49,883 nt of DNA from Thermovirga sp. Lineage in GTDB: Bacteria > Synergistota > Synergistia > Synergistales > Thermovirgaceae. The first letter of the stretch is position 1. Every line of letters begins with the position of its first letter. Below the pieces are notes generated by a model, which made no database searches, was not told where the DNA came from, and saw only the letters and a program-made list of their open reading frames with translations. The stretch covers positions 1 to 49,883 of the forward strand of contig NZ_JACDOB010000012.1 in NCBI RefSeq assembly GCF_017656375.1, written 5' to 3'. Below, piece by piece: positions 24,038 through 27,846 of the stretch. A program made the position numbers and the translations under genes.

Positions 24038-24576
24038 TGGCCAAGGTTAAACTTGCCACTGTGTGGCTGGAAGCCTGTGCGGGCTGCCATATGTCTTTCC
24101 TCGATATTGATGATAGGATACTGGGCTTGTTGGAGAAAGTTGACATAATGTATTCCCCTGTGGTAGATGCCAAGGAAATACCAAAAGTTGACATAGGTGT
24201 TATTTCCGGAGCGTTGGGGAACGACGAGGAAGTTCATCTGGCGAAGAAGATGCGAGAACAGTGCGATATTCTGATCGCATGGGGAGATTGTGCTGTTTTT
24301 GGGGGCATAAACAGCATGCGTAACTTTATGCCTGCAGAGGAAGCGCTTAAAAAGGCATATGTAGATACTGTGAGCACTGTGAATCCTGAAGGAATAATTC
24401 CAGGAGAGGACATTCCTCAATTGCTGCCTAAGGCTATACCAGTGGATCAGGTCGTAAAGGTAGATGTTTACGTTCCTGGATGTCCGCCAGATGCAGACAC
24501 TATATTGTGGGTTTTCCAGGAATTGCTTGAAGGAAGGATTCCTAAAGTTCCCGCTGAAATGATGCGGTATGACTAA
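24037..24576 (+). CDS. hydS: [NiFe] hydrogenase small subunit HydS (HoxY-like)
   Basis: A 179-residue short small subunit, as in group 3 cytoplasmic hydrogenases. Proximal [4Fe-4S] ligands: EACAGCHMSFL near residue 12-15, GDCAVFGG and GCPPDADTI. It has no Tat signal peptide and no medial or distal cluster domain, which agrees with a soluble enzyme. The ATG is fused to the hydA stop (TAATG). Confidence 0.95.
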   Translation: MAKVKLATVWLEACAGCHMSFLDIDDRILGLLEKVDIMYSPVVDAKEIPKVDIGVISGALGNDEEVHLAKKMREQCDILIAWGDCAVFGGINSMRNFMPAEEALKKAYVDTVSTVNPEGIIPGEDIPQLLPKAIPVDQVVKVDVYVPGCPPDADTILWVFQELLEGRIPKVPAEMMRYD

Positions 24577-24589
24577 GGGGGGCTATAAA

Positions 24590-26017
24590 ATGGGTACGGT
24601 TCGTAAAATAGAGGTTAATCCCATTACGAGGATAGAAGGACACGGCAAGATCACGGTACATCTCGACGAGAATGGAACCGTTTCTGAAGCCCGTTTTCAC
24701 GTCACTCAGTTCAGGGGGTTTGAGGCCTTTACTAAGGGACGTGATTTTAGGGAGATGCCGGAGATAACGCCTAGAATATGCGGGATATGCCCGGTTAGCC
24801 ACCATCTTGCTTCCGCTAAAGCCTGTGATGCTATTCTTGGCGTACAGATAACCCCAACTGCTCACAAGCTCAGGGAATTGCTTCATATGGGACAGTTCGT
24901 TCAGTCTCATGCGTTGAGCTTTTTTCACCTTTCCAGCCCGGATCTGCTCTTTGGCTTTGATGCTGATCCTGCCATAAGAAATATTGTAGGTGTTGCTGCC
25001 AAATTTCCTGAGATCGCTACCAAAGGCATAATGTTGAGAAAATTTGGGCAGGAGATAATAAAGACTCTGGGAGGCAAGAAGGTACATCCTTGGCACAGCA
25101 TCCCAGGAGGGGTAAATAGGAGCATTAAAGAAAGTGAAAGGGATTCCTATCTTAAGGAAATTCCCACAATGAAGGGATACGTTAAAGATGCCTTGGAACT
25201 CGTAAAAGGCTATTTACAAGAACACAAAGATGAAGTTTCCACATTTGCGCCTATGAAAACTTCCTATATGGGACTTGTAGCCGATGGCTTCCTGGAACTT
25301 TACGATGGGGACATCAGGCTTAGGGGGGCAAGAGGCAGGATTATCGACGAATTTCCTGATTGGGCATATGCAGACTACATAGGGGAGCATGTTGAACCAT
25401 GGAGCTACCTCAAGTTCCCATTCTATCGTCCCCTAGGATATCCAAACGGAAGTTATAGAGTAGGGCCTCTTGGAAGGCTTAACGCGTGCGATGATATATC
25501 CACTCCGGAGGCCTCAGAGGAGTTGAAGCTTTACAGACAGGCGGGAGAAGAAGGCATAGTACACGATGTCCTCTATTACCACTACGCAAGGCTTATAGAA
25601 GCGCTCTACGGAGTTGAGCGTATAGAGCAACTCTTGGAAGATCCGGATATAACAGGAAGCGATCTTAGGATAACTTCCAATGAACTTTACCCTGAAGGTA
25701 TAGGTGTCATAGAGGCGCCCAGGGGAACGTTGATTCACCACTACAAAGTCGACGAGAGTGGTGCCATAACGGACGTTAACCTTATAGTAGCCACAGGACA
25801 CAACAATTTTGCTATGAACAAGGGAGTAGAGGCCATAGCGAAGGCGTACATCAAAGGAGACGACGTACCTGAAGGGGTCATGAACAGGATGGAACACCTT
25901 ATCAGGTGTTACGACCCATGCCTTTCGTGTTCGACTCATGCTGTAGGCAAGATGCCTTTGGAGTTGTCCATAGTGGACAACAGCGGAGAGATTCTCCGTA
26001 AGATCTACAAGGATTAG
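24590..26017 (+). CDS. hydL: [NiFe] hydrogenase large subunit HydL (HoxH-like), catalytic
   Basis: The H2-activating subunit. The four active-site cysteines are C64 and C67 (RICGICPVSH, L1) and C444 and C447 (DPCLSCSTH, L2), with no selenocysteine. After His450 a C-terminal extension of 25 residues follows (AVGKMPLEL...), which the specific endopeptidase must remove after nickel insertion; that protease is the next gene. I choose ATG 24590 behind AAGGGGGG, giving 475 residues and the classical N-terminus ending IEGHGK. The nickel comes plausibly from NikKMLQO. Confidence 0.96.
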   Translation: MGTVRKIEVNPITRIEGHGKITVHLDENGTVSEARFHVTQFRGFEAFTKGRDFREMPEITPRICGICPVSHHLASAKACDAILGVQITPTAHKLRELLHMGQFVQSHALSFFHLSSPDLLFGFDADPAIRNIVGVAAKFPEIATKGIMLRKFGQEIIKTLGGKKVHPWHSIPGGVNRSIKESERDSYLKEIPTMKGYVKDALELVKGYLQEHKDEVSTFAPMKTSYMGLVADGFLELYDGDIRLRGARGRIIDEFPDWAYADYIGEHVEPWSYLKFPFYRPLGYPNGSYRVGPLGRLNACDDISTPEASEELKLYRQAGEEGIVHDVLYYHYARLIEALYGVERIEQLLEDPDITGSDLRITSNELYPEGIGVIEAPRGTLIHHYKVDESGAITDVNLIVATGHNNFAMNKGVEAIAKAYIKGDDVPEGVMNRMEHLIRCYDPCLSCSTHAVGKMPLELSIVDNSGEILRKIYKD

Positions 26018-26029
26018 TCTGAGGCTAAG

Positions 26030-26494
26030 ATGAAAGCTTTTGTCCTGGGATATGGAAACGTTTCCAGGCAGGATGATGGGGCGGGCCACTTGCTTGCAGG
26101 GCTTGTGGCCCGCATTATCAGAAAGAGCGGGGCTGAAGTTGAGCTTTGGAGAGGGCATCAGTTGGTGCCAGAAGTTCTTCTAGATATAAAAGGATATCAA
26201 GTCCTGTTTTTTTGTGATGCATCATTAAAGCCTTATCCTGAGGGTTTTCTCATAGAGAAGGTAAATCCAGGAGATATGAAGACAGAAGGGCTAAACATGC
26301 ATACCTTTGGCCCTGCAAACGTGTTATCTTTAGCTGAGCAACTCACGGGAGAGGTTCCTGACGCATGGTTGATATCTGTTACGGGGGAATCTTTCGATTT
26401 TTCTCATCGTCTAACTCCTCAGTGCAAGACGAGAATAAAAAGCGCGGCTAGAGCATTCCGTTCTTTTTGGAAACATCTTTCTGAGGGGCTTTAA
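26030..26494 (+). CDS. Hydrogenase maturation protease (HycI/HyaD/HoxW family)
   Basis: A 154-residue endopeptidase that trims the C-terminus of the large subunit. It has the family motif LGYGNVSRQDDGAG near the N-terminus (Ni-sensing Asp in the DDG) and a second metal-binding position in FFCDAS followed by MHTFGP (His). It starts 12 bp after hydL, closing the operon, and its end lies inside the long palindrome 26473-26517. HoxW is the functional analogue; I leave the symbol blank. Confidence 0.92.
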   Translation: MKAFVLGYGNVSRQDDGAGHLLAGLVARIIRKSGAEVELWRGHQLVPEVLLDIKGYQVLFFCDASLKPYPEGFLIEKVNPGDMKTEGLNMHTFGPANVLSLAEQLTGEVPDAWLISVTGESFDFSHRLTPQCKTRIKSAARAFRSFWKHLSEGL

Positions 26495-26602: not shown

Positions 26603-26857
26603 TTGAGTAGGGCTTTTGTAAAGGATGATGAAGATGCTGAGAGAATAAAGGAACTGTTTGAGCAGGAAAAGAAACTTTTGGATTGGTTGAATATCCAGAA
26701 GAAAAAGCTTTCTGTGCTTGAATCTGGAGAAAAAGCAGGTACCATTGATGAAGTTAAGAGGAAGCAATGGATAATAAAAACGAAAAAAGATATAGAGGAT
26801 ACGGAAAAAACCCTAGAGAGATTGCGCGAGGAGATAAAAGGGCTTCAAAAAGGATAG
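26603..26857 (+). CDS. Small coiled-coil protein of unknown function
   Basis: An 84-residue, highly charged, helical protein (for example RIKELFEQEKKLLDWLN and IKTKKDIEDTEKTLERLREE), almost certainly a coiled coil. TTG start at 26603 behind a strong AAAGGAGG at 8 bp. It is followed 18 bp later by a membrane-bound J-domain gene, so the two may work together. I do not recognise the family. Confidence 0.72.
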   Translation: MSRAFVKDDEDAERIKELFEQEKKLLDWLNIQKKKLSVLESGEKAGTIDEVKRKQWIIKTKKDIEDTEKTLERLREEIKGLQKG

Positions 26858-27292: not shown

Positions 27293-27646
27293 ATGAAGTT
27301 GAAGTTGGTCGTATTGGTAATTGCCTATATTCTTGCCACAGCGGTTTCCTCCATGGCTGAAGGAGTTGTCTTTTCAGCCGAAGCCAGAAAAGAAATGGCC
27401 AAAATGGGCAATGAAGGTTATATAAGCATACAGAAGATAGGTTCTGGCTGAAGGGCAAATTATATAGCCCTCGTGCAGGGCGGCAAGCCCGAAGACCTGG
27501 AGAATTATTATCTTGTATCGACGGAAGGTATAAATTTGTGGGTACAAAAAAACCTTGAATATGAAGGGGATGCCCTCCACATTGATAAAGTGCTTACTAC
27601 TTTAGGTTATCTGCTATTAGGTGTAAACGCCCATATGAGGTTCTAA
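27293..27646 (+). CDS. Probable HesB/IscA-like selenoprotein with in-frame UGA (Sec53)
   Basis: The frame ATG 27293 to TAA 27646 is interrupted only by UGA at 27449-27451 (codon 53). Translated through it, the product has 117 residues: a signal-like N-terminus (about 1-22, ending SSMAEG), FSAEARKEM, IGSG-U-RANYIALVQGG and a conserved-looking end. The UGA sits where IscA/HesB proteins have their first cluster-binding Cys, a known Sec position in HesB-like selenoproteins (recalled). Two hairpins follow UGA at bacterial SECIS distance. The frame after UGA reads smoothly to a stop that overlaps the dodecin stop by 3 bp. An alternative is a one-base pseudogene. Standard calling would lose or shorten this gene. 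Confidence 0.7.
27467..27490 (+). promoter_or_regulatory. Candidate bacterial SECIS element
   Basis: Two overlapping stems follow the UGA. GCCCT/AGGGC with loop CGTGC begins its loop 20 nt after UGA; GGGC/GCCC with loop GGCAA begins its loop 30 nt after UGA. Both have a G among the first two loop bases and lie in the 16-37 nt window used for bacterial SECIS prediction. The elements share bases, so only one forms at a time. Confidence 0.5.
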
Positions 27647-27846
27647 TGATATTTGAAGGAGAGTTTTATTTTAACTCTGTATTGGTCAATTTTCCCATCC
27701 TTTATTGTCACATCTTGTTCTACGACTTCTGCTACTCGTAAGTCCTGAAGAGTTTTGGAGGCTGTTTCTACCGCATTTTTGACGGCTTCTTCCCAGGATG
27801 TATCACTACACCCTATTATCTCTATTACTTTATAGACTCCGCTCAT
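27643..27846 (-). CDS. Dodecin (flavin storage protein)
   Basis: A 67-residue dodecin, a dodecameric flavin-binding and storage protein. Typical sequence: MSGVYKVIEIIGCSD, then SWEEAVKNAVETASKTL and the DGKIDQYRVKIKLSF end strand. Convergent to the UGA-containing gene, with stop codons overlapping by 3 bp. Confidence 0.92.
   Translation of the reverse strand: MSGVYKVIEIIGCSDTSWEEAVKNAVETASKTLQDLRVAEVVEQDVTIKDGKIDQYRVKIKLSFKYH

Follow-up and report, generated by a model that had tools for sequence, protein, structure and literature searches.

At positions 27293-27646 of the window, the whole 49,883-nt stretch of Thermovirga sp. DNA analysed here, a reading frame is interrupted by a UGA codon. 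This locus raises the question of whether the UGA ends a short gene or is read as selenocysteine (Sec). An initial annotation had proposed a new, exported, HesB/IscA-like selenoprotein. The best explanation of the evidence as a whole, with a probability of about 0.85 on sequence comparison, is that the frame encodes an exported selenoprotein of the CC/Se motif family with an IscA/SufA-like fold. The features of the locus are collected in Table 1.

Table 1. Features at and around the candidate selenoprotein gene, with their positions in the window.
Feature	Position	Strand	Evidence
[NiFe] hydrogenase large subunit (Vhu-like), upstream neighbour	24569..26017	+	PF00374, NF041785
Hydrogenase maturation protease	26030..26494	+	TIGR00072, 65.7 bits; also upstream in G001 and G004
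Charged coiled-coil-like protein, 84 aa, first of a conserved triplet	26603..26857	+	Order kept in orthologous loci
Membrane-anchored J-domain protein, 128 aa	26876..27262	+	PF00226, E 1.1e-15; C-terminal part of DjlA, E 1.6e-24
Predicted exported IscA-fold selenoprotein gene, 117 aa including Sec53	27293..27646	+	Single in-frame TGA; orthologues, paralogues and dN/dS; NF041239, E 1.4e-7
Probable signal peptide, residues 1-22 (MKLK, hydrophobic core, SMA|EG)	27293..27358	+	Hydrophobicity, pattern in orthologues
UGA codon, predicted Sec53	27449..27451	+	TGA in the same column of paralogues and relatives; Cys there in others
Candidate SECIS hairpin GCCCU-CGUGC-AGGGC (GCCCTCGTGCAGGGC), G at loop position 2	27467..27481	+	Pairing in 59 relatives versus null
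Second hairpin of the initial annotation (GGGCGGCAAGCCC), weakly supported as SECIS	27478..27490	+	Near null in the exported group
Dodecin gene, convergent	27643..27846	-	PF07311, E 3.2e-28; same place in G001 and G004

The reading frame on both sides of the UGA codon

The frame described in the initial annotation, running from ATG to TAA and broken only by UGA, was confirmed as a single frame of 117 residues whose sole in-frame TGA is codon 53. It starts 30 nt after the J-domain gene, and its 3' end shares 4 nt with the dodecin gene, an overlap that had also been noticed. Under the standard code, without recoding, the frame shrinks to a 52-aa ORF, as the annotation had pointed out, and this small gene has been missed because of its internal UGA.

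A gene caller would see this same 52-aa ORF if the UGA were a true stop, in which case the locus would hold just a 52-codon peptide, or a pseudogene undergoing decay, and the downstream homology would be a relic. However, the coding signature claimed for both sides of the UGA is borne out by comparison with the orthologue of a congener (G001a, 68% protein identity), which has TGA at the same codon. By the Nei–Gojobori method, dN is 0.238 both upstream and downstream of the UGA, with dS values of 1.90 and 2.26, respectively, which are close to saturation. The dN/dS ratio is ~0.1 on both sides, and hence the amino acids after the UGA are selected as strongly as those before it.

This conservation extends well beyond the congener. 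Relatives of the readthrough protein were found in 30 of the 41 genomes searched, and the genome containing the window encodes three paralogues, at 34%, 35% and 25% identity, with one TGA apiece in the same column. Scanning 183 genomes of the order with the family model NF041239 gave 63 matches in 48 genomes, 56 with exactly one TGA and seven with none. The UGA is thus kept in most of these matches, with the frame intact after it, and the hairpin described below is also conserved. Purifying selection downstream of the UGA and conservation across genomes refute the true stop, which is considered exceedingly improbable.

A sequencing or assembly error in a gene encoding Cys or Trp at this codon might be suspected, given that the window is one contig of an 85-contig assembly. 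Against this, the same TGA is present in the congener orthologue, which lies on a 1.97 Mb contig of a two-contig genome, and in orthologue G004a (43% identity), which comes from a separate MAG (the only one recovered when genome contigs were scanned with three orthologues). The three paralogues with TGA at this codon lie on other contigs. The independent genomes refute such an error, whose probability is close to nil.

Not every member of the family retains the UGA. Looking for Cys or Sec at this position in homologues had been suggested as a check, and both were found: Cys occupies the Sec column in G128b, G012 (found in the readthrough-protein search of 41 genomes), G109, G115 and G116. G128b is the Cys copy of a tandem pair (L085, contig 2136737-2137451) whose other copy has UGA. 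In two further members the column holds Trp (G003b, TGG) or Ser (G006b, TCC), with the frame intact. After this loss of Sec, G003b and G006b are still constrained (dN 0.18, dS 0.67, dN/dS ~0.27), which argues that Sec is dispensable for the protein's role there. Judged by these substitution rates, the protein still serves a role once Sec is lost, at least in the genus of G003b and G006b. Both genomes also carry a second family member in which the UGA is retained.

A SECIS hairpin and the decoding machinery

The initial annotation had named two possible SECIS hairpins, of which the nearer has been supported by covariation in 59 relatives with TGA and the farther is not well supported. The nearer hairpin begins 16 nt after the UGA and has the loop CGUGC. 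Its stem is paired in 281 of 295 cells (95%), compared with 198.3 ± 6.7 cells (67%) under a synonymous-codon null whose maximum in 2000 redraws was 221, so that the null lies ~12 s.d. below the observed value. A fully paired stem is found in 47 of the 59 relatives versus 6.8 ± 2.4 under the null, and among exported orthologues with UGA all 35 of 35 cells are paired. When every 5-bp stem in the region was scanned, this one ranked first.

The hairpin segment, of 5-6 bp and 16 nt downstream, lies at a constant distance from the UGA in the 59 TGA members, and in most of them it encodes Ala-Leu-Val-x-Gly/Ser. Changes at the wobble position of the Ala codon go with changes at the first base of the opposite Gly, Ser or Arg codon (C-G in 29, T-A in 25 and G-C in 2). 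The loop follows the pattern [C/G]GU.., so that one of its first two positions is G. Four members without TGA were also examined: the stem is kept in G006b and G128b, as expected of a recent Sec loss, retains four of its five pairs in G003b and is lost in G012.

Minimum free energy folding of single sequences is ambiguous, with competing hairpins formed in the window sequence, and the choice among them was settled by the family-wide pair test. The farther hairpin is moderately above expectation in the whole family (145/236 cells versus a null of 116 ± 6) and not clearly so in the exported group (22/28 versus 19.4 ± 1.8). A third candidate, immediately after the UGA (AGGGC...GCCCT, 27452-27471), was rejected as a SECIS since its pairing is at the null expectation. 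An Rfam search of the window at gathering thresholds gave no match.

The genome containing the window (1.80 Mb, 99% complete) was searched for sel genes, another check suggested at the outset, and selA, selB, selC and selD were all found. The tRNA-Sec gene selC matches Rfam RF01852 with 78.9 bits, the next tRNA scoring far lower at 44.6 bits, and is called by ARAGORN as tRNA-SeC with anticodon tca. The selA (578 bits) and selB (383.7 bits) genes adjoin each other. The selD gene (348.9 bits) has its own in-frame TGA and represents a further selenoprotein of this genome (L031, G000 C19:12138-13067).

Reading of the UGA as Trp, or by a near-cognate tRNA, with no selenium involved, is suggested by the TGG codon that orthologue G003b carries at this position. 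Nevertheless, it is at odds with the full set of sel genes, with the Cys found at this column in five relatives, with selection on the SECIS-like hairpin and with the paralogue G000c, which terminates at TGA in the same genome; such readthrough is very improbable. The comparative evidence for UGA as a Sec codon is very strong, and every comparative test marks 27293-27646 as a real selenoprotein gene. On this comparative evidence, codon 53 would be decoded as Sec by the host SelA/B/C/D system, and insertion would be directed by the hairpin at 27467-27481.

Family membership and predicted fold

The only family model matched by the window protein is NF041239 (31.5 bits over residues 27-99), the CC/Se family model Moor_selen_rel, whose cut-off of 40 bits it misses; one of its paralogues in this genome scores 42.5 bits, and all 35 of 35 aligned relatives match. 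In the alignment, the Sec of the window protein sits in the Sec column of this family, with which it also shares the domain. In contrast, the CC/UC motif is absent from the window protein, which has UR instead (the second Cys is also missing in many relatives), a signal-peptide-like N-terminus is present and the score stays below the cut-off. NF041239 has been listed as a known selenoprotein family, apart from the HesB-like family TIGR01911 (2026 review, PMC13188914).

Given this match and this listing, the verdict is of a branch and not of a wholly new family. The "new selenoprotein" of the initial annotation is, by sequence comparison, a selenoprotein and an exported variant within a known family. 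It is assigned to a divergent branch of the CC/Se family, below the model cut-off; what appears as new is this exported, Cys-free branch, as the parent family is already catalogued.

The "HesB/IscA-like" label likewise stands for the fold, on Foldseek and profile comparison, and fails for the HesB-like selenoprotein family. The models of the latter, TIGR01911 and NF038090, do not match the window protein even at E values as high as 10, and NF038090 (IscA_HesB_Se) matches only 2 of the 35 relatives, with a best E of 0.039. HesB-like selenoproteins are also small, Sec-containing and distant kin of IscA. However, the UxGP motif given for that family (PMC13188914) is missing in the window protein, which has URAN.

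Several lines of evidence relate the protein to IscA. The Fe-S_biosyn model PF01521 matches four family members (best E 2.3e-5) and gave no match to the window protein itself, and a PDB sequence search returned nothing notable. An AlphaFold2 model built from the 35-row alignment has a pLDDT of 86 and a pTM of 0.73, and its seven best Foldseek matches in the PDB are all SufA, IscA or AQ_1857 (probability 0.96-1.00), with modest TM scores of 0.37-0.51 and a best E-value of 1.6e-3. Profile-based comparison to the E. coli proteins IscA, SufA and ErpA gave P 8.2e-7 and placed Sec53 onto IscA Cys35, in agreement with the annotation's claim that the UGA falls at the first conserved Cys of IscA/HesB proteins. 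The predicted fold is the IscA/SufA-like beta fold, with Sec modelled where IscA has its first cluster-binding Cys, and the whole CC/Se family seems to be an outlying branch of the A-type carrier superfamily.

Fold and alignment could also point to a classical A-type carrier (IscA/HesB) holding an Fe-S cluster by Sec and C-terminal Cys, the more so as some cytosolic relatives and paralogues end in GGC, CGC or GCSGC. The likeness to the carriers IscA, SufA and ErpA (PF01521) comprises the predicted fold and the position of the first Cys, whereas the window protein is distant in sequence, has a signal-peptide-like N-terminus and lacks the C-terminal CGC. It has zero Cys, and outside the Sec column the only Cys among its orthologues is a C-terminal one in G001a, most of the exported ones being free of Cys altogether. 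Because the C-terminal IscA cysteines are missing, classical Fe-S scaffold chemistry would not be expected, and a carrier of this type is quite improbable. The product is very probably, as far as sequence can tell, an exported, Cys-free, Se-containing relative of iron-sulphur assembly proteins.

Probable export and the neighbouring J-domain protein

The signal-peptide-like N-terminus noticed in the initial annotation recurs in orthologues. N-terminal hydrophobicity is bimodal among relatives, at 2.7-4.1 in the exported ones and no higher than 1.75 in the others, which are cytosolic, and the window protein has 3.2. Judged by pattern and hydrophobicity only, the N-terminus is a probable signal peptide, with cleavage-site patterns SMA|EG in the window protein, VLA|QE in the congener and AAA|ME in G004. 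The mature protein would thus comprise ~95 residues and be periplasmic, with one selenolate and no thiol.

Two other exported sets have been found in the order: one in G017, G026, G021 and G051, and one with Sec in G065 and G056 and Cys in G109, G115 and G116. In the tree, the G017 set stands apart and the G065 set groups weakly with the window's group; the tree gives two changes for the exported character, and a single change is obtained in 55% of bootstraps. In G017 (L076) and G026 (L077/L062), tandem pairs of exported UGA-containing genes lie between fumarylacetoacetate hydrolase-like and AddB-like genes. Members of the G065 set in G056 (L110, Sec) and G109 (L112, Cys) are near genes for an apparently exported protein of ~1270 aa and an exported protein of ~120 aa.

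The J-protein is encoded directly upstream in the same orientation, with an N-terminal hydrophobic segment and a C-terminal DnaJ domain that contains HPD. HMM searches gave no confident family for the 84-aa coiled-coil-like protein. The order coiled-coil protein (84-96 aa), J-protein and selenoprotein is found in the window and in G001, G004, G007, G002, G009, G008 and G003; no J-protein was recovered at the G006 locus, where the sequence has N. Ahead of the triplet the loci differ: the window, G001 and G004 have hydrogenase and maturation protease genes, whereas in six genomes of the same taxonomic family (G002, G003 and G006-G009; L105-L108, L117 and L118) an Hsp90 (HtpG) gene directly precedes the triplet, with HtpG identity checked by HMM in G008 and by eye in G002, G003, G006, G007 and G009. 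As these upstream genes vary, the conserved partner is the J-protein and not the hydrogenase.

It could be that the selenoprotein is real but stays anchored in the membrane by an uncleaved hydrophobic N-terminus. Its IscA-like domain would then lie outside, or inside by the J-domain if the N-terminus is out, and would function in Fe-S or hydrogenase maturation. The upstream J-protein is itself membrane-anchored, J-proteins (HscB) serve Fe-S biogenesis, and in three genomes the genes upstream include those of a hydrogenase and its maturation protease. However, the short n-region with K, the h-region and the small-residue c-region suit a cleavable signal, six genomes have the Hsp90-type gene instead of adjoining hydrogenase genes, and the CGC terminus of IscA is missing. 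An anchored maturation factor is therefore unlikely, and the exported selenoprotein with a cleavable signal is preferred.

For this exported protein, it may be speculated that the lone selenolate binds a metal or metalloid, or serves in redox chemistry as a nucleophile that a partner or a second protomer resolves, and that its envelope function could be linked to the membrane J-protein encoded just upstream, a link that rests on synteny within one taxonomic family. A tentative possibility is that the periplasmic IscA-fold protein, in which the lone Sec is the sole chalcogen side chain besides methionine, the membrane J-protein and the coiled-coil partner form an unrecognised envelope system of this Synergistales family, with roles in metal or metalloid handling or in repair of oxidised proteins, from which Sec can be lost without loss of the gene.

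These results place the CC/Se family in the IscA/HesB fold and add an exported, Cys-free branch, overlooked by the NF041239 cut-off and by ordinary gene callers, to a selenoprotein family lacking an assigned function. The order-wide set, in which a single column holds Sec, Cys, Trp or Ser and the SECIS covaries, offers a clean system for studying the gain and loss of Sec, and also lends itself to asking how a lone selenolate acts when carried by an IscA scaffold.
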